A stretch of DNA of 63,939 nt from an uncultured Bacteroidales bacterium (GTDB taxonomy: Bacteria; Bacteroidota; Bacteroidia; Bacteroidales; Paludibacteraceae), in contig CAIWCC010000051.1 of assembly GCA_903911085.1 (NCBI GenBank), positions 1 through 63,939 on the forward strand, given 5' to 3'. This document shows, one piece after another, positions 41,925-53,633 of the stretch. How positions within the stretch are numbered: the stretch's first letter is position 1; each line of letters opens with the position of its first letter. A program made the position numbers and the translations under genes. The notes beneath the pieces are model-generated. The model made no database searches. It was not told the DNA's origin and saw nothing but the letters and a program-made list of their open reading frames with translations.

Positions 41925-44003
41925 ATGAAATCAAAATTATTTATTTTCTTGTTGCTTAGTTATGCTGGAACTTTTTTGGCTCAAACTAAAACAGTAAATG
42001 TTACTACAGCGGGCACATTAAGTACGTTACTAACTACTACAGAAGCTAATACGCTTACAAACTTGATTGTGACTGGAAATATAGATGCACGTGATGTGGC
42101 GTTTATGCGTGATAAAATTTTACTTTTATCGGTTTTAGATCTAAGTGCAGCCAAAATAAAGGCATATACAGGCATTGATGGAACTTATGCGCTTGCCACA
42201 ATTGCTTATCCAGCCAATGAATTGCCGTTGTGCGCTTTTTATAATGCTTCAACTATTACATACAAATATTCTCTTACTTCAATTAAACTTCCCACTACTT
42301 TAACTTCAATTGGAGGTTCAGCTTTTTATTATTGTTACGGATTAACAGGGACATTCAATATTCCTGCAACTGTCACTTCTATTGGTAGTTATGCACTTTA
42401 TGGATGTAGTTCATTGTCTGCTTACACTGTTGAAACAGCCAATACACGCTATTCTTCCAATAACGGTGTTTTATTCAACAAGAAACAGGATTCACTTTTT
42501 ATTTGCCCAAGTGCCAAAACAGGTAGTTATACGATTCCCTCAACAGTTGTTTATATTGGCGCCTCAGCTTTCGATTATTGTAGTGGTTTAACTGGAAATT
42601 TAACTATTCCATCATCGGTGAAGTCAATAGGAAGTTATGCATTTTATTATTGTACAGGTTTTACAGGTAGTTTGACGATTCCAAGTTCAATGACTTCAAT
42701 TTCAGAAGGAACATTTTATGGTTGTAGTGGCCTGTCTGGTACTGTAAATATTCCAAAATCAGTTACATCTATCGGAGCATATTCATTTTTTGAATGTAAT
42801 AAATTGTCTTCATTTCAGGTTGATGCATTAAATTCGAAGTACTCATCGTTAAATGATGTTTTATTTACAAAAACACAAGATTCATTACTTATTTGTCCAG
42901 CAGCTAAAACAGGAAGTTATACAATTCCAAGTACGGTTAAAGGTATTGGAAGTTATGCTTTCTATAATTGTAGTGGTTTAAGTGGTAGTTTGGTTATACC
43001 CAAATCAGTCGGTTTAATTGGAAGTTATGCATTTTACGGCTGTACTCTTTTATCTGGTTATGAGGTAGATGCATTAAATACAAAGTATTTATCTAATAAT
43101 GGTGTTTTGTTTAACAAAAATCAAGATTCATTGTTAGTTTGTCCAAGTGGCAAAACAGGGAGTTATTTAATTCCTAATACAGTAAAAAACATTGGAACTT
43201 ATGCATTTTATTATTGCAAAAGCTTAACTGGAAGTATTAATATACCAGCATCGGTTACAAGTATTGGTAATTATGCATTTTATGGGTGCACTCAACTAAC
43301 TGCTTTGCAGGTGGATGCTGCCAACTCAATCTTTTCTTCAATTGATGGTGTTTTATTTAATAAATTGCAAGATTCATTATTTATTTGTCCTTTAGGAAAA
43401 ACAGGAAAATATTCCATTCCAAATACTGTTAAAGCAATTGATTACTCTGCTTTTGATGGATGTGTTGGTTTAACAAGCATTGTTATTCCCAATTCGGTTA
43501 CATCAATTGGTAGTTATGCTTTTGAGTATTGTAGCGGTTTGACAGAGATTTCATTACCTAAAAGTATTGCAACAATAGGTAGCGGTGCTTTTTACAGTTG
43601 TACGAATTTGCAAAAACTTTCCATTCAAAACCCAATTCCTCCAACAATTGATTATTATACTTTCAATTTAGTAAATAAAACAGTATGCCAGTTACTTGTG
43701 CCAATCGGTTCACTTATAGCCTACCAAATTTCGGATTTTTGGAAAGAATTTTCAAAAATATCCGAAAGTAGTTTCACAGCTGTTCCATCGGTATTGTCAG
43801 ATAATGATATTATAATCTATAAAAATGAACAAAACTTAATAATTGAAGGTACTAAATTGGGGGAATTAATTGAGATATATCAAGTAAATGGAAAACAGAT
43901 TAGTAAGTTAATATCAACAGGTAATAAACTAACAATCAGCTTACCACATGACAATATATATTTAATTAAAGCAAATCAGAAAATCAAAAAAGTAATTTTT
44001 TGA
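41925..44003 (+). CDS. BspA-like leucine-rich-repeat surface protein with type IX-style tail
   Basis: A 692-residue exported protein with a signal peptide (ending near FLAQ). Most of it is TpLRR/BspA-type leucine-rich repeats (IGSYAFYGCSSL, TSIGSYAFYYCTG, VIPNSVTSIGSYAF). Four larger modules start with VxALNxxY/VETANT and contain LFNKxQDSLxxCP followed by KTGSY(T/L)IP. The C-terminal 80 residues resemble a type IX sorting domain (GELIEIYQVNGKQISKL; NIYLIKANQKIKKVIF). BspA-like proteins bind host or matrix ligands in oral and gut species; the ligand here is unknown. Confidence 0.85.
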   Translation: MKSKLFIFLLLSYAGTFLAQTKTVNVTTAGTLSTLLTTTEANTLTNLIVTGNIDARDVAFMRDKILLLSVLDLSAAKIKAYTGIDGTYALATIAYPANELPLCAFYNASTITYKYSLTSIKLPTTLTSIGGSAFYYCYGLTGTFNIPATVTSIGSYALYGCSSLSAYTVETANTRYSSNNGVLFNKKQDSLFICPSAKTGSYTIPSTVVYIGASAFDYCSGLTGNLTIPSSVKSIGSYAFYYCTGFTGSLTIPSSMTSISEGTFYGCSGLSGTVNIPKSVTSIGAYSFFECNKLSSFQVDALNSKYSSLNDVLFTKTQDSLLICPAAKTGSYTIPSTVKGIGSYAFYNCSGLSGSLVIPKSVGLIGSYAFYGCTLLSGYEVDALNTKYLSNNGVLFNKNQDSLLVCPSGKTGSYLIPNTVKNIGTYAFYYCKSLTGSINIPASVTSIGNYAFYGCTQLTALQVDAANSIFSSIDGVLFNKLQDSLFICPLGKTGKYSIPNTVKAIDYSAFDGCVGLTSIVIPNSVTSIGSYAFEYCSGLTEISLPKSIATIGSGAFYSCTNLQKLSIQNPIPPTIDYYTFNLVNKTVCQLLVPIGSLIAYQISDFWKEFSKISESSFTAVPSVLSDNDIIIYKNEQNLIIEGTKLGELIEIYQVNGKQISKLISTGNKLTISLPHDNIYLIKANQKIKKVIF
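42429..43430 (+). repeat. Internal coding repeats of about 246 bp in the LRR protein
   Basis: Modules start at residues 169, 299, 381 and 463, the last three exactly 82 residues (246 bp) apart. They encode an insertion of the type LFNKxQDSLxxCPxxKTGSY between LRR units, so three copies are in regular register and one is offset by an additional LRR stretch. Confidence 0.8.
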
Positions 44004-44181
44004 GCATATTGTTAAATATTTATTTTAATCAAATTATTTACATGTATAATTGTAAATGACAATTAATCAATTAGTTAAAACAAAAAAAGTGAATATGATT
44101 GATTAATAGATTAGACTATATCATACACTTAGTAATAATTCCTTTTCACTGAAATGATTTTTTTTTGTTTATAGCATTGCA

Positions 44182-44189
44182 TATTTTTG
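44182..44189 (+). promoter_or_regulatory. Candidate -7 box (TATTTTTG) for the PqqD-like gene set
   Basis: A match to TAnnTTTG 37 bp before the ATG of the PqqD-like gene, with a TTTT tract at the -33 spacing. I see no other start signal for the following genes except weak AT-rich DNA, so this may drive the set. Confidence 0.4.
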
Positions 44190-44226
44190 TTACATAAAAA
44201 AAACAAACAATTAAAATAACCACATT

Positions 44227-44466
44227 ATGACACTCAAGAAAAACATTGCCACCAGCGAAGAAGGATTTGTATTTAATCCAGGCACAGGAGACTCATTTTC
44301 AACTAATACCATAGGAGGTGATATAATTGCATTATTGAAAGATAATAAATCTCTTAAGGAAATAAGTGAAATTATATGTAAAAAATACGATGTCGACAAA
44401 GATCAGTTCGAAAAAGACTTGGACGATTTTGAATCTCAATTGAAAGATTATGCAATTATTGATTAA
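44227..44466 (+). CDS. PqqD-like small protein (RRE-type)
   Basis: A 79-residue acidic protein with the fold signature of PqqD/RiPP-recognition-element proteins: EEGFVFNPGTGDSFSTNTIGGDIIALL, then LKEISEIICKKYDVDKDQFEKDLDDFESQLKDYAIID. Such proteins bind precursor peptides and hand them to modifying enzymes. No PqqA, PqqE or radical SAM enzyme is visible, so this is not PQQ synthesis. It begins a same-strand set with an ATP-grasp enzyme and a PLP decarboxylase; no separate precursor peptide is apparent within the set. Confidence 0.75.
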   Translation: MTLKKNIATSEEGFVFNPGTGDSFSTNTIGGDIIALLKDNKSLKEISEIICKKYDVDKDQFEKDLDDFESQLKDYAIID

Positions 44467-44570
44467 GAAATTAGAAAATAACAAGATAAGAAGTTAACTG
44501 CGTCTGAAACCCTTGTTTGGGCTTGCAGGCAGGGCAAGATATCGAGTTTGAAAAAATTAAGAAAACAAAG

Positions 44571-45647
44571 ATGAAAAAGCAAGAAAACAATAAAGACCTT
44601 TCTCTAAAAAAGAAAATCGTAATAGCTGTTACCGCTTTGAATGCTATCGACAGTCCTGGACCAGGTGTGGCAGTGATTCGTGCTATTAGAGAATGTGAGG
44701 ATTTCGACGTTAGGATTATCGGACTTTCGTATGAAGCATTAGAGCCAGGATTGTATATGCACGATTTGGTGGATAAAACTTATCAAATCCCCTACCCATC
44801 GGCGGGTACAGATTGTTTGTTGGGAAGATTAATTTACATTCATGAAAATGAAAACATTGACGTAATTATTCCAAATTTTGATGCAGAACTTTTCAATTTC
44901 ATCAAACTGAAAGATAAACTTAAAGAGTTAGGTATTGCAACTTTTTTACCTGATTTAGATCAATTTGAAGCTCGCGACAAAGTAAAACTTTATGACTTTG
45001 GTCAAAAGCACGGTTTAATGGTGCCAGCTGACAAAATAATATTTAATACTAGGGAACTTGAGAAGACTGCTAAAGAATTAGAATATCCGCTCGTAGTAAA
45101 GGGTAAATTTTACGATGCTATTATTGCCAACACCTTAGAGCAAGCTGAAAAAGCTTTTTACAAAATTCAAGCTAAATGGGGACTTCCCATTATAGTTCAG
45201 GAGTTTATAAAAGGAACTGAAATAAATATTGCAGCACTTGGAGATGGAAATGGAAATGCAATTAGCGTAATTCCAATGCGTAAACTATATATTACAGATA
45301 AAGGAAAAGCATGGGCTGGCATTACTCTCGATGATGATACTTATATAAAACTTGCACAAAAATTTATTGAAATTACTAAATGGCGTGGAGGATGTGAATT
45401 GGAGATTATGCAAACGGCTGATGGAAAATCGTATATCATGGAAGTGAACCCAAGGTTTCCAGCTTGGATTTATCTAACGGCTGCAGCTGGACAAAATCAA
45501 CCAGCATCATTAGTAAAAATGGCTTTGGGACAAAAAGTGGAAGCATTAAAAGATTATGAGGTTGGAAAAATATTTGTCCGTTATGCATGGGATTTAATTA
45601 CCGATATCAAAGAGTTTCAACAGATTTCTGGAAGAGGCGAACTTTAA
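44571..45647 (+). CDS. ATP-grasp enzyme
   Basis: About 358 residues from ATG 44571; a further in-frame TTG start at 44517 looks less likely. N-terminal domain (KKKIVIAVTALNAIDSPGPGVAVIRAI) is pre-ATP-grasp. The ATP-grasp core has ARDKVKLYDFGQKHGLMVP, YPLVVKGKFYDAIIAN, IVQEFIKGTEINIAALGDGNG, and the metal-binding end CELEIMQTADGKSYIMEVNPRFPAWI. These match carbamoyl-phosphate/peptide-ligase type ATP-grasp proteins. It should join a carboxylate to an amine; the substrates are unknown. It follows the PqqD-like gene after 104 bp and precedes a PLP decarboxylase across a 210-bp gap that contains an inverted repeat. Confidence 0.85.
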   Translation: MKKQENNKDLSLKKKIVIAVTALNAIDSPGPGVAVIRAIRECEDFDVRIIGLSYEALEPGLYMHDLVDKTYQIPYPSAGTDCLLGRLIYIHENENIDVIIPNFDAELFNFIKLKDKLKELGIATFLPDLDQFEARDKVKLYDFGQKHGLMVPADKIIFNTRELEKTAKELEYPLVVKGKFYDAIIANTLEQAEKAFYKIQAKWGLPIIVQEFIKGTEINIAALGDGNGNAISVIPMRKLYITDKGKAWAGITLDDDTYIKLAQKFIEITKWRGGCELEIMQTADGKSYIMEVNPRFPAWIYLTAAAGQNQPASLVKMALGQKVEALKDYEVGKIFVRYAWDLITDIKEFQQISGRGEL

Positions 45648-45660
45648 ATCACCCAAAAAA

Positions 45661-45837
45661 GAACCCCTAACCCCTAAAGGGGAATTAGGCAAGTACTTTC
45701 GACATATTTTTTTAATTAAAATAAATAACCAATACTAACTTCAACTCACATGTAGACAAGTAATTTGGTTGACAAAATATATTAAGAATCACAAATAATC
45801 AATACTAACCTAATTCCCCTTCAGGGGTTAGGGGTTA
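45661..45837. repeat. 28-bp inverted repeat pair in an intergenic gap
   Basis: The segment 45661-45689 (AACCCCTAACCCCTAAAGGGG then AATTAGG) is matched by 45810-45837 in reverse complement, with one mismatch, about 120 bp apart. The left copy begins 13 bp after the ATP-grasp stop codon; the right one ends 20 bp before the decarboxylase start. Together they would fold into a large hairpin or act as a mobile palindromic element. Confidence 0.85.
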
Positions 45838-45857
45838 AAATTAAAATTATTTCAATC

Positions 45858-47219
45858 ATGGAAAAAATAAGATACGAAAGACCGATAATTCAAAAAATGA
45901 ATACGGGACTTATGAATAAATTTGGAACACGTACTGAATATGAGCCAGTTACAAATATTGAAAGTATTTCAGTAAAAAGTTTGATAAATGACTATGGTAC
46001 ACCACTTTTTGTATTATCAGAAAAACAAATTCGCCGCAATTATCAAAATGCAAATCGAATATTTAAAACTCGATACCCTAAAGTTCAGTTTGCTTGGTCG
46101 TACAAAACCAACTATATGAATGCCGTATGTAGCATTTTTCATCAAGAGGGTTCTTGGGCAGAAGTAGTTTCTGGATTTGAGTATGAAAAAGCATTACAGA
46201 ATGGTGTTCCTGGAAATAAAATAATATTTAACGGACCTGACAAAACCGACGATCAATTGGTAAAAGCTGCCAAAAATAATTCATTGATTCACATTGACCA
46301 TTTTGACGAGTTGTATTCTTTGATTCGTTTAAGCGAAGAAAACAGTTTAAAACCACGCGTGGCAATAAGAGTAAATATGGATACAGGCATTTATCCAAAA
46401 TGGGATAGGTTTGGATTTAACTTCGAAAACGGACAAGCTTGGAATGCTATTACCCGTATTATAAATTCAGAAAACCTTGATTTAGTGGGACTTCATTGTC
46501 ATATTGGTACATTTATGTTATCACCGTCAGCTTATGCAATAGCCTCAACCAAATTATGTGAATTGACATGGAGCATTAAAGAAAAATACAATAAAATTAT
46601 TCAATATATTGATCTTGGAGGTGGTTTTCCATCTGCCAACACACTAAAAGGGGCTTATTTGCCTGGTTCTGATACAGTTCCATCAATCGATCAATTTGCA
46701 GATGCTATTACAGATGTGATTCTTGGTTACGGTTTCAAGCAAGAAGACTTGCCATTGCTTATTCTAGAATCGGGAAGAGTACTAATTGACGATGCTGGTT
46801 ATTTGTTGGGGAGTGTGTTAGCTACCAAACGACTATCGGATGGACGAAGAGCCACAATTCTTAATTTTGGTGTAAATACATTATTTACTGCATTTTGGTA
46901 CGATCATAAAATTAGTCCAGCGCAAGCATTTGGAAGTCATACCGAAGAAATGGTAATGTATGGTCCACTTTGCATGAATATTGATATTGTGCGCGAAAGT
47001 ATCACCTTTCCATTACTCGAAAAGGGAGATAATGTAGTGGTGCACAAAGTTGGAGCATATAATATGACTCAATGGATGCAATTTATTACTTTGCGACCAA
47101 ATATTGTTTTGATTGATAATGAAAATAATACGCATATAATTCGTAAAGCTGAAACGTTAGATAATTTGCAAACAAATGAACAACTTCCAGAACATTTAAA
47201 AAAACAAACGTTGAAATAA
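45858..47219 (+). CDS. PLP-dependent decarboxylase (DapDC/ODC-like fold type III)
   Basis: A 453-residue protein with the alanine-racemase-like barrel of diaminopimelate/arginine decarboxylases. The PLP-lysine region is VQFAWSYKTNYMNAV, the His segment is GLHCHIGTFMLSP, the glycine-rich phosphate loop is YIDLGGGFPSA, and LILESGRVLIDDAGYLLG and the C-terminal VVVHKVGAYNMTQWMQF follow. These match diaminopimelate decarboxylase relatives more than ornithine decarboxylase, but the cluster context suggests a specialised substrate rather than lysine synthesis. It sits between the ATP-grasp gene and the urea transporter/M23 fusion. Confidence 0.85.
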   Translation: MEKIRYERPIIQKMNTGLMNKFGTRTEYEPVTNIESISVKSLINDYGTPLFVLSEKQIRRNYQNANRIFKTRYPKVQFAWSYKTNYMNAVCSIFHQEGSWAEVVSGFEYEKALQNGVPGNKIIFNGPDKTDDQLVKAAKNNSLIHIDHFDELYSLIRLSEENSLKPRVAIRVNMDTGIYPKWDRFGFNFENGQAWNAITRIINSENLDLVGLHCHIGTFMLSPSAYAIASTKLCELTWSIKEKYNKIIQYIDLGGGFPSANTLKGAYLPGSDTVPSIDQFADAITDVILGYGFKQEDLPLLILESGRVLIDDAGYLLGSVLATKRLSDGRRATILNFGVNTLFTAFWYDHKISPAQAFGSHTEEMVMYGPLCMNIDIVRESITFPLLEKGDNVVVHKVGAYNMTQWMQFITLRPNIVLIDNENNTHIIRKAETLDNLQTNEQLPEHLKKQTLK

Positions 47220-47301
47220 TTGGCCTAAAACAGGGTCTAAAGACACAGTTTGGGTGGTTTGGTAAAAAATTAAAGAACGAAGCAAAACTTTATTAATCTG
47301 A

Positions 47302-49506
47302 ATGAAAAACTCAATTAAATCCTTCAATAACTTAATTCTACCAGCCACGTTGAATAGTTATTCAGTTATTTTCTTTTTTAATAACAGACTATTGGCAACT
47401 GTATTGTTGCTAGTTTCATTTTTTAATTTTTATGCAGGATTGAGTGGATTAATTGCAGTTTTGGTTACTGTATTGATAGCCAATTCAATGGGATTTGATA
47501 AGCAACAGCTTAAACAAGGGCTTTTTAGTTTCAATGCACTTTTGACTGGTTTAGGCATGGGAACATTTTTTGATCCAGGTTTAGTGTATTTTAGCTTATT
47601 AATACTTGCTGCTTTACTTTCACTTATTCTTTCAGTAACACTTGGGGGTTGGTTAAATAAGTATGGTTTACCAGTGTTAAGTATTCCATTTGTTTTTGCT
47701 TTTTGGTTTATTGTCTTACCATCTTCACAATTCGAAAACCTTGGTTTAACACAACGTAATGTCTACTGGATGAACGAGGTATACGATTTGGGAGGAAATT
47801 CATTATTGAACTTTTTTCAGACTGTCGATTCTTTACCAGTTCATAATTTGGTTGGAATTTATCTCCGTTCTTTGAGCTCAATTTTCTTTCAAGACAATTT
47901 AATTACAGGATTACTTATTGCCATTGGTTTGTTAATTTGTTCGAGAATTACGTTTTCATTATCGATAATTGGTTTTTTATCAGCCTATTTTTTTGCACAG
48001 TTTTCGGGTTCGGAAACTGCAAGTATTACATACTATAATATTGGAGCTAATTATATAATGGTGGCAATTGCCATGGGTGCATTTTTTGTAATTCCATCGC
48101 GTTATTCCTATATGTGGACTATTTTGTTGGTTCCACTTACTTCATTGGTTTTATTGTTTTTCAATAAGTTGTTTGGATTCATACAGTTACCCGTTTTTTC
48201 GTTGCCATTTTCGTTTGTCGTAATATTCTTTGTTTATTTTTTGATTTTACGAAAAAATCCAACCAAACTATTGCTAACACCTATTCAGTATTATTCTCCT
48301 GAAATAAACCTTTATACTTTTAACAATAATAAGGCTCGACTATCACATTTATTATATTATCCACTTTATTTACCTTTTTGGGGTGAGTGGACTGTAACGC
48401 AAGGACATGATGGAAATCATACTCACAAAGGTGACTGGGGAAAAGCTTTTGATTTTATGTTGTTTGATAATGAGTTGAAAACTTATAATTCAAATGGATT
48501 ATTGTGTGAAAATTATTATTGTTATAATAAACCTATTTTAGCGCCAGCAGATGGAATTGTTGAAGCAATTTATGATCACATTGATGACAACGAAATAGGC
48601 AAAGTGAATACCAATAATAATTGGGGAAATACTATCATAATTACACATTTAACTGGACTTTATACTCAAATGAGTCACTTGAAAAAACATTCATTTAAAG
48701 TGAATATTGGTGATTTTGTTCGTAGAGGAGATATATTGGCAGTTTGTGGTAATTCGGGACGTTCGCCCGAACCACATTTACATTTTCAAGTACAGACATC
48801 GCCAATTTTAGGTTCAAAAACAATTGATTATCCTTTTGCATATTACAACCTAAATCAAGATCCGGAACAAAAATTGTTGCAATTTTCTAAACCTATAGAT
48901 GCTCAAGTAGTTTCAGGAATAAACTTGAACAATTTTCTTAAAACAGCGTTTGATATAATGCCTAACACAACATTAAAATTTCAATATAATGTTAGCAATG
49001 GAACTGAATTGAAAGAACAATGGGAAGCATTTACTGATGCTTATAATTACAAATACTTGTATTGTAAAGAAACAGAATCAAGTGCTTATTATGTAGATGA
49101 TGGTTCGATGTTCTACTTTACAGCATTTTACGGAAATAAAAAATCTTTACTATATTATTTCTACTTAACATCATACAAAGTTTTTTTAGGCGAAACAAAC
49201 AATGTTGAAGTTATTGATGCTATGCCACTGAATATCATACAAAATAAGAAAATTAGTATTCTATTACACGATTTCATAGCACCATTTTATAATTATATTA
49301 AAGTATTGTATTCTATAAAAACAGAATCTGTTGATAATCCATTCGACACTTCAAAATTAGTTTTGAATTCAAAAATTCAAATTTCAGTTTTTGGAAAACT
49401 TAAAAGTGAAAGTAAAAGTAGCATTACTTTAAGTGAAAATATCATTAAAGAATTTACATACAAAACAAAGAAAATTAGTATAAAAGCTAGATGTATAAAT
49501 TCATAA
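47302..49506 (+). CDS. Urea transporter fused to an M23 peptidase domain
   Basis: A 734-residue membrane protein. The first 315 residues form a urea-transporter domain with about ten helices and two copies of the family signature LPxx(S/T)xPF: LPVLSIPF near residues 123-130 and LPVFSLPF near 296-303. After a linker, residues about 355-500 are a LytM/M23 zinc-peptidase domain: NHTHKGDWGKAFDF (zinc His375, Asp384 or 378), PILAPADGIVEAIY, MSHL, GDILAVCGNSG and PHLHF (His492, His494). The C-terminal 230 residues are unrecognised. Topology would place the peptidase in the periplasm. Fusions of this kind are known in some bacteria; the substrate is uncertain. Its stop overlaps the next gene by 16 bp. 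Confidence 0.85.
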   Translation: MKNSIKSFNNLILPATLNSYSVIFFFNNRLLATVLLLVSFFNFYAGLSGLIAVLVTVLIANSMGFDKQQLKQGLFSFNALLTGLGMGTFFDPGLVYFSLLILAALLSLILSVTLGGWLNKYGLPVLSIPFVFAFWFIVLPSSQFENLGLTQRNVYWMNEVYDLGGNSLLNFFQTVDSLPVHNLVGIYLRSLSSIFFQDNLITGLLIAIGLLICSRITFSLSIIGFLSAYFFAQFSGSETASITYYNIGANYIMVAIAMGAFFVIPSRYSYMWTILLVPLTSLVLLFFNKLFGFIQLPVFSLPFSFVVIFFVYFLILRKNPTKLLLTPIQYYSPEINLYTFNNNKARLSHLLYYPLYLPFWGEWTVTQGHDGNHTHKGDWGKAFDFMLFDNELKTYNSNGLLCENYYCYNKPILAPADGIVEAIYDHIDDNEIGKVNTNNNWGNTIIITHLTGLYTQMSHLKKHSFKVNIGDFVRRGDILAVCGNSGRSPEPHLHFQVQTSPILGSKTIDYPFAYYNLNQDPEQKLLQFSKPIDAQVVSGINLNNFLKTAFDIMPNTTLKFQYNVSNGTELKEQWEAFTDAYNYKYLYCKETESSAYYVDDGSMFYFTAFYGNKKSLLYYFYLTSYKVFLGETNNVEVIDAMPLNIIQNKKISILLHDFIAPFYNYIKVLYSIKTESVDNPFDTSKLVLNSKIQISVFGKLKSESKSSITLSENIIKEFTYKTKKISIKARCINS

Positions 49507-50663
49507 TAATTCCCTTGTTTTTTGTTTCACAGTTGGTCAATGCTCAACAACCTATTAGCTTTCAATTGGCCGATAGTATTACAAATCAGTGTTATTTGAA
49601 CGGTGATTGGGATAAGTTGATTAATTTTGGTGAAGAAGCATTAAGACAAGATATTGATTTTAAGAAACTTCATAAACGGATAGGTTATGCTTATTTTGCA
49701 AAAGGCAAATATTTTTCTGCTCAAAAACAATTTGAAAAAGCATTATCATTTGATAATTCCGATTTGGATACAAGGGCTTACCTATATTATTGCGGATTAA
49801 ATCTAGGCAACAAAACTTTAACAGGTTTTCATGCAAGTAAATTGCCTTCAGAAACTCAGAAAAAAATGAGTATTAAATCATTTAAATTGATTGATGCACT
49901 TGATGCTGAGTATAATTATAAATCGAATGATGATAGTTTGGGAATTCGCTCAAATCCAAATTATTATAGAATGGGTGTTGATACAAAGTTGTCTAATAGA
50001 ATTAACTTATATCAATCGATTTCACAATATAATCAATATGTGAATGTTACAACCGCTACCAAGCAAACTGAGTATTTCGGTTCTTTAAATTGTATAATTT
50101 CATCAAAATTGAACATGGACGTTGCATTTCACTATTTAAATACAAAAGTTGATACAACATTATTTCCAGGATATATGTATTATGGAAAAATATCATCAAA
50201 ATTTAATCGATTTGATTTTGGCGTGAGTGGTTCTTTAATGACAAATGCATTGGGCAACTTTGGTCAGATAAATGCTCATTTTGGTTTATCATTGCTCGAA
50301 ACCAATTTATATATAAAAACTATTTTAACCAGAATGATAGAGAATAAAGTAAACACTACTTACGATAGCAATAACAATAGATTTGTTTTTTCGCAAGCGG
50401 CAGGAGCTCATATTCTTAAACCACTATGGCTAGAAGCAAATGTAACTTTAGGTAATATAAAGAATTACAACGATAATAATGGTTTGTATATTTATAATTC
50501 CCTCGATCCCACAACTTTCAGAACTGGTTTAACTTCTATAATTAAAATTAACAGTAAATTATCATTGGTTGGAAATTACACTTACGACCTAAAAAAAATC
50601 GAACAAACAACAATAAATTATAATCAACATTCATTTTCAACAGGAATAATATGGAAACTTTAA
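49491..50663 (+). CDS. Exported TPR protein with outer-membrane barrel-like C-terminus
   Basis: A 390-residue exported protein with a signal peptide ending at VNAQQ. It begins with TPR-like repeats (about residues 30-115: GYAYFAKGKYFSAQKQFEKAL). The rest (about 155-390) is beta-rich with repeated aromatic amphipathic strands and ends in an aromatic C-terminal strand (HSFSTGIIWKL), as in outer-membrane barrels. It overlaps the fusion gene by 16 bp and the next TPR gene by 13 bp, so the last three genes are one unit. Function unknown. Confidence 0.72.
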   Translation: MYKFIIIPLFFVSQLVNAQQPISFQLADSITNQCYLNGDWDKLINFGEEALRQDIDFKKLHKRIGYAYFAKGKYFSAQKQFEKALSFDNSDLDTRAYLYYCGLNLGNKTLTGFHASKLPSETQKKMSIKSFKLIDALDAEYNYKSNDDSLGIRSNPNYYRMGVDTKLSNRINLYQSISQYNQYVNVTTATKQTEYFGSLNCIISSKLNMDVAFHYLNTKVDTTLFPGYMYYGKISSKFNRFDFGVSGSLMTNALGNFGQINAHFGLSLLETNLYIKTILTRMIENKVNTTYDSNNNRFVFSQAAGAHILKPLWLEANVTLGNIKNYNDNNGLYIYNSLDPTTFRTGLTSIIKINSKLSLVGNYTYDLKKIEQTTINYNQHSFSTGIIWKL

Positions 50664-51271
50664 AAAGAATCACAATTGTAGCAAGTTTTAGTTTGCTATT
50701 TATCAGTGCAATAGCACAAAGTTCTGCTGTTATGCAAGCTGCATTTTCAAAAAGTTATGTTTCGGAGCAAGCTGGAAACTTTACTGGAGCCATTAGCGAT
50801 TTAAAATCGGTGTATAAAGCCAACGATTATGTGGTAAATGTTCGACTTGGCTGGCTTTATTATAATGCCAAACAATATTCCGAATCCATTAAATATTATG
50901 ACATTGCGGTTGCTCTCAAACCTTACGCCATCGAAGCACGTTTTGGTTGTGTAAAACCATTGAGTGCTATCGAGAACTGGGAAAAAGTGAAAGAACATTA
51001 TTTGCAAATACTTAAAATAGATCCACAAAACACTGTTGCAAACTATTGGATAGGAGTAATTTATTATAACCGAAAAGACTATGCTAGAGCAACAAACTAT
51101 TTTGGAAAAAATTTTAATCTCTATCCTTTGGACTATGATTCGGTAATTATGCTTGCGTGGTCTAAATTAAACAGTGGTAAACAAGCCGATGCAAGTATTT
51201 TATTTAATCAAGCTTTGATTATTCGTCCTGCAGATAGTTCTGCATTAGCTGGATTGAAACAAATAAAGTAA
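50651..51271 (+). CDS. Periplasmic TPR protein
   Basis: A 206-residue exported protein with a signal peptide ending near SAIAQ and about five TPR units (LKSVYKANDYVVNVRLGWLYYNAKQY; LKIDPQNTVANYWIGVIYYNRKDY). Such proteins act as scaffolds in envelope complexes. It starts inside the end of the previous gene (13 bp overlap) and closes the set. A strong terminator follows at 51323. Confidence 0.75.
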   Translation: METLKRITIVASFSLLFISAIAQSSAVMQAAFSKSYVSEQAGNFTGAISDLKSVYKANDYVVNVRLGWLYYNAKQYSESIKYYDIAVALKPYAIEARFGCVKPLSAIENWEKVKEHYLQILKIDPQNTVANYWIGVIYYNRKDYARATNYFGKNFNLYPLDYDSVIMLAWSKLNSGKQADASILFNQALIIRPADSSALAGLKQIK

Positions 51272-51322
51272 ATCTGTAAATATATTATTTTACGTTTTTG
51301 TAATTTAACTTACTAAAATATT

Positions 51323-51372
51323 AATGACCAAAATCAGTACATGTTTTATAGTACGGATTTTGGTCATTTTTT
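51323..51372 (+). terminator. Terminator of the 44-51 kb gene set
   Basis: A 13-bp stem (51323-51335 with 51356-51368), extended by an inner GTAC/GTAC pairing, and followed by a T-run. It separates the set from the DEAD-box helicase gene. Confidence 0.9.
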
Positions 51373-51423
51373 TTAATTGTATTTTTGATGAAAAAATAGC
51401 CATATAAATTCCTAAAAAACAAT

Positions 51424-51431
51424 TACCTTTG
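51424..51431 (+). promoter_or_regulatory. Candidate -7 box (TACCTTTG) for the DbpA-like helicase
   Basis: A full octamer match 49 bp before the ATG, right after the terminator. No TTTG partner is seen at the normal spacing. Confidence 0.45.
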
Positions 51432-51480
51432 TTCGATTATAAAAATAATTAATAGTATTTCAACAAATTACATATAGACC

Positions 51481-52872
51481 ATGACATTTTCGGATTTAGG
51501 GATTAACGCAGCAATCAATCAAGCACTTGAAGAAAATAAAATTTCTGTACCCACAGATATTCAAATTCAAACAATACCGCATATTTTAGAAAACCTTTCG
51601 GATTTGGTGGCTGTGGCTCAAACAGGAACTGGTAAAACAGCCGCTTTTTGTTTGCCTATTCTTCAAACTATCGACCCCAAATTAGCCAAAATTCAAGCTT
51701 TGGTATTGGTTCCTACGCGAGAACTTGGGCAACAAGTGGCACGAGAATTTTTTCTTTTTTCCAAACATTTATCTCGTGTTTTTGCCGAAGCAGTTTATGG
51801 CGGCGCACCAATTGAGGAACAAATACAAAAACTGAAACGTGCAACACATGTGGTGGTAGCAACTCCTGGTCGTCTGCTCGACTTATTAGATAGAGGTGCT
51901 ATTAATCTACAGGATTTGAAATACTTAGTACTTGACGAAGCCGACGAAATGATGAATATGGGTTTTAAAACCGAAATTGATCAAATTCTCAAATCTTGCA
52001 AAAATAATATCACAAAGATGTTATTTACAGCAACGATGTCAAGCGATGTAAATCAAATTATTAGTAATTATTTACGTCCCAAATATATCGAAATTCGTAT
52101 CAATGCTGAAGAATTTATAAATCAAAAAATTGATCATAAGTATCTAATATATAAGCAAGGAGATAAAATTGATTATTTGAAAGCATTTTTGAGTGATCAC
52201 CAAAATCAACGTGGTATAGCATTCTGTCGCACAAAAATTGCTACCAAAAGACTGGCGAAACAATTGGCTGGTTTTGAAGTAGTAGCTGATGCACTACATG
52301 GCAATTTGAATCAGGAGATGCGCGACAAAGTGATGCGTGGATTTAAAAAAGGTAGAATTAATTTGCTGGTAGCCACCGATATAGCAGCACGTGGAATTGA
52401 TGTTAAAGATTTGGATTATATTATTCATTATCATTTGCCCGAAAAGTCCGAACATTATACACATCGAAGTGGTAGAACGGCTCGTGCAGGCAAAACAGGG
52501 GTTTCAGTTTGCATGGTAAAGTCAGATAACTTGCAAGAAATCAAAACCTTAGAATCCGAATTGAAAATACAATTTTCGTCCATAAATATTCAACCAAAGC
52601 CTGAAAAACAAAGTCTACCAATCACTATTTATATAAATATTGGCTTTGCTCAAGGCTTTACCAAGGGCAATCTACGTGAATTTCTTGTTGAAGAAGCAGG
52701 ATTGAATATGGATAGCATTCAAAATATTACAGTGGAAGACAATCGTTCATATTTTACAATCTCACAGAAATACGAACAGCAAATTTACATTAATTTAAAA
52801 GGTTATAAATTAGCTCATCGAAATTTAAAACTTACTTTAGATGGTGCAAATAGTAAACGTAATATTTATTGA
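51481..52872 (+). CDS. DEAD-box RNA helicase with DbpA-type RNA-binding domain
   Basis: A 463-residue ATP-dependent RNA helicase. N-terminal Q motif (IPTDIQIQTIP-like), Walker A AQTGTGKTAA, motif Ia PTRELGQQVA, motif II VLDEADEMMNMGF, motif III SATMS, and in the second domain ATDIAARGIDV and HRSGRTARAGK. The C-terminal 80 residues (ITIYINIGFAQGFTKGNLREFLVEEAGL) match the DbpA RNA-binding domain, which targets 23S rRNA in other species. Cytoplasmic, likely in ribosome assembly or RNA decay. I do not assign a gene symbol without a family search. Confidence 0.92.
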   Translation: MTFSDLGINAAINQALEENKISVPTDIQIQTIPHILENLSDLVAVAQTGTGKTAAFCLPILQTIDPKLAKIQALVLVPTRELGQQVAREFFLFSKHLSRVFAEAVYGGAPIEEQIQKLKRATHVVVATPGRLLDLLDRGAINLQDLKYLVLDEADEMMNMGFKTEIDQILKSCKNNITKMLFTATMSSDVNQIISNYLRPKYIEIRINAEEFINQKIDHKYLIYKQGDKIDYLKAFLSDHQNQRGIAFCRTKIATKRLAKQLAGFEVVADALHGNLNQEMRDKVMRGFKKGRINLLVATDIAARGIDVKDLDYIIHYHLPEKSEHYTHRSGRTARAGKTGVSVCMVKSDNLQEIKTLESELKIQFSSINIQPKPEKQSLPITIYINIGFAQGFTKGNLREFLVEEAGLNMDSIQNITVEDNRSYFTISQKYEQQIYINLKGYKLAHRNLKLTLDGANSKRNIY

Positions 52873-52931
52873 GAAATATCAAGTATAATTTTGTGATTTA
52901 TAATTTCAAATAAAATTATTTTCAAAAAAAA

Positions 52932-53633
52932 ATGAAAATAATAACTAATATAATACTACTTTTTATTGTTATACAAACTGCTGTTTCACAAGAGAATGCG
53001 AAACAAAAGCCTTTTGTATTTTTCCCAGGAGCATATCAAAAGTGGGATTACAAAATTAGTGCGGGTCTAAGTTTAACCAGACTACCAAATGAAATTGTAG
53101 AAGAAGAAATCAATACTTTGCCAATGTTGAATGCAGATTTCAAAATGGGACTTCCTCATAAATTTATGCTAAATACGAAAATTAACACGAATTATATTTC
53201 AAATATGGTTTCATTGGCACTCCAAAAAAATATAATTGATAAGAAATTCGCATTGGCAGCAGGTGTTAATGGTTCAATCTGGTATGGGCAACTTCATCAA
53301 GAAATTTTTAGATTGAATGCTTTTGGTTTAATATTAAATCCATACATAGTTGGTGGTGTACATTTCGATGACATATATTTATCTATGAAACTCGAAAATC
53401 AATTTGGGACTATGAGAACTTTTTCTAATGGAACTGCACTTGGCAAAAGCAATCAACCTAATTCAGCGTATTCCTTCACCTTTAATATCGAGCAACCCCT
53501 GTGGAATAATCATTGGGTGGCGTTGGGTTTAAAACTAAATTATGCAAAGTTCAATTATCAATCTTGGCTTACTTATAGTGCTATTGATCAGTATCTTCTT
53601 TATCCAGAATACTCGTTTACAATTATCTTTTAA
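52932..53633 (+). CDS. Unknown outer-membrane protein
   Basis: A 233-residue exported protein (signal to about TAVSQ) with amphipathic beta strands over most of its length (KFMLNTKINTNYIS; ALGLKLNYAKFNYQSW) and a C-terminal strand YPEYSFTIIF, which suggests a small outer-membrane barrel. No family recognised. It lies 8-14 bp before the glycerophosphodiesterase lipoprotein gene and after a helicase gene, so it is probably first in a three-gene set. Confidence 0.65.
   Translation: MKIITNIILLFIVIQTAVSQENAKQKPFVFFPGAYQKWDYKISAGLSLTRLPNEIVEEEINTLPMLNADFKMGLPHKFMLNTKINTNYISNMVSLALQKNIIDKKFALAAGVNGSIWYGQLHQEIFRLNAFGLILNPYIVGGVHFDDIYLSMKLENQFGTMRTFSNGTALGKSNQPNSAYSFTFNIEQPLWNNHWVALGLKLNYAKFNYQSWLTYSAIDQYLLYPEYSFTIIF

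Follow-up and report, generated by a model that had tools for sequence, protein, structure and literature searches.

What do six adjacent genes of an uncultured Bacteroidales bacterium (Paludibacteraceae) accomplish together? The genes lie at the 3' side of the window, which is the whole stretch of DNA analysed here, 63,939 nucleotides of contig CAIWCC010000051.1 (assembly GCA_903911085.1). They encode a PqqD-like protein (pqqD), an ATP-grasp ligase (grasp), a pyridoxal phosphate (PLP) decarboxylase, a fusion of a urea transporter (UT) channel to an M23 peptidase (UT-M23), an outer-membrane barrel with tetratricopeptide repeats (TPR), and a secreted TPR protein (tpr). The original prediction, made from this sequence, was that the first three genes make or modify an amino-acid-derived product in the cytoplasm and that the last three act in the envelope. 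That interpretation is partly supported. All six genes are real. Their membership of a single conserved unit is well supported, as is the division of that unit into module A (PqqD-like protein, ATP-grasp, decarboxylase) and module B (UT-M23, barrel, TPR protein). To the reading of this unit as a biosynthesis-and-export operon for a small amino-acid-derived amine or amide we give an even chance.

Conservation of the six genes

Relatives were gathered by a decarboxylase-seeded scan of public genomes, which returned at least 580; the best 80 were kept, and all are labelled as Bacteroidota. All 68 full loci share one gene order and strand, as the original prediction would have it, with median spacings that are short or negative. 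These 68 loci were picked for six near-full-length genes and therefore test order, not presence. Presence was tested separately in loci fetched by the decarboxylase alone and counted where the contig extends far enough. Of 75 such loci, 73 have the grasp gene 5' of the decarboxylase, and 67 of 71 have pqqD there; on the 3' side the tallies are 71 of 72 for UT-M23, 55 of 56 for the barrel and 54 of 55 for tpr. In two loci (L124, L127) the decarboxylase stands alone and the grasp gene is elsewhere in the genome, on another contig. The pqqD exceptions also include L084 and L100, both on contigs containing undetermined bases; an apparent fusion of the L084 grasp to another gene (727 aa) was rejected as an artefact of such bases.

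Co-occurrence was also assessed in a class sample of 295 genomes. UT-M23 matched 67 of these and 65 were kept, since in G075 and G262 the match was limited to the M23 part. The decarboxylase occurs in 60 genomes and grasp in 61, with both together in 60; 57 and 58 of these, respectively, also carry UT-M23, so that UT-M23 and grasp coexist in about a fifth of the sampled class. The A genes and module B are on separate contigs in G026, and G151 looks alike. One genome, G304 (C126 and C71), has two copies of the operon ATP-grasp, one of them off the UT-M23 contig. Strains with all six genes include Pedobacter nototheniae 36B243 (L101) and Mucilaginibacter myungsuensis KCTC 22746 (L110).

A second ligase-decarboxylase pair beside module B

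Eight genomes with UT-M23 gave no decarboxylase match. In one, G253, grasp is present and the decarboxylase is cut by the contig end. The remaining seven (G041, G100, G115, G164, G168, G209, G220) also lack grasp, and six of them carry a different pair of enzymes; the seventh, G209, is 68% complete. The replacing set is divergent and comprises a 145-162 aa protein with no Pfam family at E 1, a 913-941 aa decarboxylase and a 489-495 aa ATP-grasp, with no PqqD gene next to the pair. The decarboxylase is an OKR-type PLP enzyme (PF01276, 1.9e-77) and the ATP-grasp matches NF005096 (PRK06524) with 707.3 bits against a cut-off of 684. Like module A, the pair is a ligase and a PLP decarboxylase next to the UT-M23/TPR/barrel module; unlike module A, it uses another decarboxylase fold and a different ATP-grasp.

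The replacing ATP-grasp occurs in 23 of the 295 genomes: six of the seven with module B only, none of the 61 with grasp, and 17 without UT-M23. It or its decarboxylase adjoins UT-M23 on the same contig in G041, G115, G100, G220 and G168, the last with UT-M23 divided between two contigs; in G164 UT-M23 and the replacing ATP-grasp each lie at contig ends. Among the 36 genomes of G100's family, UT-M23 is present in 19, and the seven with grasp all fall within those 19. The replacing ATP-grasp occurs in 12, 11 of them with UT-M23, and no genome carries both ATP-grasps. In six of these 11 the two genes share one contig, 3.5-3.9 kb apart. UT-M23 stands at a contig edge with neither ATP-grasp in G310, and G300 (83% complete) has the replacing ATP-grasp without UT-M23. 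Module A and the replacing pair were never found together in the sampled 295 and 36 genomes; the Fisher and hypergeometric values computed on the counts take no account of relatedness among genomes. That an unrelated ligase-decarboxylase pair stands in for module A is well supported. This replacement suggests ligation and decarboxylation as the underlying chemistry, with module B handling the product, and it makes this chemistry testable with purified enzymes.

Example loci from the 17 genomes without UT-M23 place the replacing pair beside a class-III aminotransferase, a carbon-nitrogen hydrolase, a C45-type hydrolase and/or an aldehyde dehydrogenase. The aminotransferase is near GABA (gamma-aminobutyrate) transaminase, with 502.5 bits against 506.65 for TIGR00700. 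In BLAST searches with example proteins, one or both amide hydrolases were present in 17 of 17 loci without UT-M23 and in 0 of 7 UT-M23-linked loci, in fetched stretches of up to 19 kb of which several UT-M23-linked ones were shorter or cut. One amide intermediate may therefore be either degraded or passed to module B. Varying subsets of this separate cluster, made up of class-III aminotransferase, carbon-nitrogen hydrolase, long OKR-type decarboxylase, PRK06524 ATP-grasp, C45 hydrolase and aldehyde dehydrogenase, were seen at L177-L183, L185, L187, L188 and L190-L196. It looks like a breakdown route for an amide-protected amine or amino acid.

The long decarboxylase at L135:11915-14656 matches PDB entry 9n0o, deposited as 'Probable amino acid decarboxylase', across residues 10-893 (785.9 bits). 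A presumed identity for this entry was dropped; no paper among the literature matches listed contains the gene name concerned. The gene neighbourhoods in Bacteroidota could assist in identifying the substrate of this decarboxylase.

A proposed route and its alternatives

The mechanism that assumes least, put forward here as a proposal, is ligation and decarboxylation with subsequent export. The ATP-grasp, with the PqqD-like protein positioning or assisting, would use a group on an amino acid's side chain to form an amide. A side-chain amide would leave the alpha-amino and alpha-carboxyl groups free, and the PLP decarboxylase would then take off the free alpha-carboxylate. UT-M23 would carry the product through the inner membrane and, in step with this transfer or immediately ahead of it, its M23 domain on the cytoplasmic side would hydrolyse an amide of either the substrate or the product. 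Passage of the outer membrane would fall to the 14-strand barrel with its TPR cap and to the secreted TPR protein. A more specific version is tentative: UT-M23 may be a bifunctional release-and-export protein, with a urea-channel fold for a new small amine or amide and a cytosolic M23 domain freeing the product from an amide handle, fed by either of two unrelated ligase-decarboxylase pairs. If so, it would parallel peptidase-containing exporters, with a small molecule as its cargo, a peptidase family regarded as a wall enzyme would work in the cytoplasm, and a urea-channel fold would serve another substrate.

Alignments for the individual proteins took one locus per 75%-identity group, minus hand-removed rows (A1, 52 sequences; A2, 53; A3, 54; A4, 46; A6, 37). 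The PqqD-like protein is the genome's only match to PF05402 (44.8 bits, cut-off 23.4). It reaches 13.9 bits against a cut-off of 46 with the PQQ (pyrroloquinoline quinone) biosynthesis model TIGR03859. Its profile (A6) best matches the lasso-peptide proteins TbiB1 (5v1u, 7e-12) and TfuB1 (1e-6). These matches favour a ribosomally synthesized and post-translationally modified peptide, with the PqqD-like protein recognizing a leader, the ATP-grasp and decarboxylase modifying a precursor and M23 removing the leader, a task that would suit a cytosolic protease joined to a transporter. We consider this unlikely. The original prediction had called for a search for conserved small open reading frames (ORFs) in the gaps at 44467-44570 and 45648-45857, and none was found there. 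The pqqD-grasp interval leaves no space for one, being at most 100 bp in 65 of the 68 full loci, with the genes overlapping in 24; the grasp-decarboxylase distance is at most 100 bp in 51. No precursor gene was found in the gaps or in flanks of up to 800 bp, a precursor encoded farther away being outside this search. Among short ORFs (18-65 aa) in those flanks, the eight largest clusters include no forward-strand one: the largest covers 8 of 69 loci, and the printed members of all eight are on the reverse strand. Moreover, the replacing pair lacks an adjacent PqqD gene, the decarboxylase comes from an amino-acid-type family, and the UT fold is a narrow channel for small solutes.

Module A also resembles the BtrI/BtrJ/BtrK side-chain set of butirosin, a small protein, an ATP-grasp (BtrJ) and an alanine-racemase-fold decarboxylase. 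BtrK is among the PDB matches of the decarboxylase profile (7ru7, 2j66) and, according to PMC7857480, acts on an amino acid bound to the carrier BtrI. The operon's small protein is, in contrast, PqqD-like and not an acyl carrier; no carrier-protein Pfam family appears among its hits, and the set comes with a channel plus a barrel in the outer membrane. Substrate attachment at its C-terminus, as on an amino-group carrier, was considered and dropped because the C-terminus is unconserved whereas an N-terminal hairpin is conserved. The ATP-grasp falls under every curated cut-off listed, with 121.4 bits for the best PRK12767 submodel against 390.

UT-M23 consists of a channel (residues 1-349), an M23/LytM peptidase (about 350-530) and a beta-rich C-terminal part to 734. 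Peptidase_M23 scores 58.3 (cut-off 28.7), and the zinc and catalytic residues of the M23 motifs are intact in all 53 aligned sequences. M23 enzymes are usually peptidoglycan hydrolases, and the structural neighbours of this domain include DipM, EnvC, ShyA and LytM. A periplasmic M23 domain could then cut peptidoglycan, with the barrel and TPR protein assisting in processing of the wall or surface, while a wall component would come from the cytosolic enzymes. This alternative appears about as improbable as the peptide system, and the predicted topology argues against it. The UT domain aligns whole to urea transporters, over 307-315 residues at 2.1-3.0 A, and the C-terminus of urea transporters is cytoplasmic. 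With the sides assigned by us, inside segments average 0.4-2.7 lysines and arginines against 0.04-0.13 in three short outside loops; the long outside loop averages 1.8 but has 3.7 acidic residues. Beyond residue 318 no segment is hydrophobic enough to form a further helix. It is a good prediction that the M23 domain is cytoplasmic and does not face the wall. Unlike DipM, EnvC and ShyA, it has some five residues inserted, by eye, between the HxG and D motifs of the canonical M23 pattern.

The channel matches Pfam UT (179.6 bits) and shares the whole fold of dvUT and UT-A/UT-B, and it could be supposed to export urea or another neutral amide by-product. This is still less probable than the wall alternative. 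The urea-binding polar ligand of the second repeat (glutamate, E, in dvUT and glutamine, Q, in the human UTs) is replaced by S in 24, A in 27 and G in 2 of 53 sequences, with E or Q in none, and the first-repeat Q is kept in just 15. As judged from this alignment, the pore is without the second-repeat urea-binding position in 53 of 53. UT-M23 reaches 124.1 bits with TIGR03441 (cut-off 274.6). Pfam searches of the operon detected neither agmatinase nor urease, and urease is unlinked to the set. Annotation among the best 120 of 2647 UT-M23 relatives reads just 'urea transporter' or 'urea transporter/MepM'.

The decarboxylase (Orn_Arg_deC_N, 101.9) has FslC as its best curated match (NF041039, 229.6 bits, cut-off 500) and 7kh2 as its best PDB match, which makes the rhizoferrin enzymes FigC/FslC its closest curated and solved relatives. 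It scores 214 against 297.9 for diaminopimelate decarboxylase LysA (TIGR01048), and a separate LysA (401 bits) is present in the host genome. All 46 aligned sequences retain the PLP catalytic positions. FigC R387, H357 and T330 correspond in all 46 to Q405, I375 and W347; the citrate-binding role of R387 and H357 is taken from PMC7857480. A siderophore-like pathway, with an N-citryl-amino-acid-type decarboxylase and export through the barrel, is the most improbable alternative, for besides the sub-cut-off FslC score and the replaced residues, the 14 flanking window genes scanned, the part of the genome searched, hold no IucA/IucC match and no NIS (NRPS-independent siderophore) synthetase.

The AlphaFold2 model of the barrel (pLDDT, predicted local distance difference test, 94.1) has helices at 24-125 and then 14 long strands within 132-389. 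The gene's own TPR scores below Pfam cut-offs. Assignment to a named family was rejected: NCBIfam matches of 52 members are mostly TPR-type, with VexE in 5. The terminal TPR gene is duplicated in tandem at L102, L107, L111, L114, L119, L130 and L066.

Layout, signals and neighbouring genes

All six ORFs lie on the + strand where they had been placed. Their family assignments stand by Pfam (PqqD, ATP-grasp, Orn_Arg_deC_N, UT plus Peptidase_M23, TPR) and, for the barrel, by the structure model.

Table 1. Positions of the operon genes and associated elements in the window.
Feature	Positions	Strand	Basis or remark
PqqD-like protein (79 aa), a small domain of peptide-binding type	44227..44466	+	Pfam PF05402
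ATP-grasp ligase, 358 aa	44571..45647	+	PRK12767-like; sits 5' of decarboxylase
Inverted-repeat (MITE-like) element, gap between grasp and decarboxylase	45662..45836		34-nt arms
Alanine-racemase-fold PLP decarboxylase, 453 aa	45858..47219	+	nearest known, N-citrylornithine decarboxylase
UT-M23 channel-peptidase fusion, 734 aa	47302..49506	+	Pfam UT and Peptidase_M23
Outer-membrane TPR/14-strand barrel protein	49491..50663	+	structure model; signal peptide by eye
Secreted TPR protein, 206 aa	50651..51271	+	Pfam TPR; signal peptide by eye
Intrinsic terminator, stem-loop then T run	51323..51368	+	folding energy

The 16-bp and 13-bp overlaps of the last three genes are exact and recur in relatives (median spacing -16 and -13 in the full loci), the first junction overlapping in 67 of 68 and the second in 56 of 68. 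The terminator is well supported (-20.5 kcal/mol, z -6.6, U run after the stem). A promoter proposed at 44182 finds no support, as 57 sigma-70-like sites were found in 42000-53500 against 60.8 expected by chance. The motif TTTG-N17-21-TAnnTTTG, a Bacteroidota promoter consensus, has no match in that interval and 8 matches in the whole window against 6.2 expected. A TTG at 44517 would give a longer form of the ATP-grasp; the starts of relatives lie near 44571. The inverted-repeat (miniature inverted-repeat transposable element-like) element in the second gap is about 175 bp long with arms 91% complementary, and is probably not part of the system. At the Rfam gathering level, tRNA was the sole match in the window.

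No account of the operon or of the UT-M23 fusion appeared among the matches listed in the openly licensed literature, subscription papers being outside the scope.

Genes upstream of the operon vary among loci. A LytTR response regulator and His_kinase cluster occurs in 43 of 99 loci (Pfam check at one locus), with a same-strand pair at most three genes upstream in 29; a GNAT acetyltransferase is near 14 loci and an AraC-type regulator near 5. Just 5' of the operon in the window lies a BspA-type leucine-rich-repeat protein (41925-44003), and a homologue 41-59% identical to it is upstream in seven relatives, several of them labelled Paludibacter.
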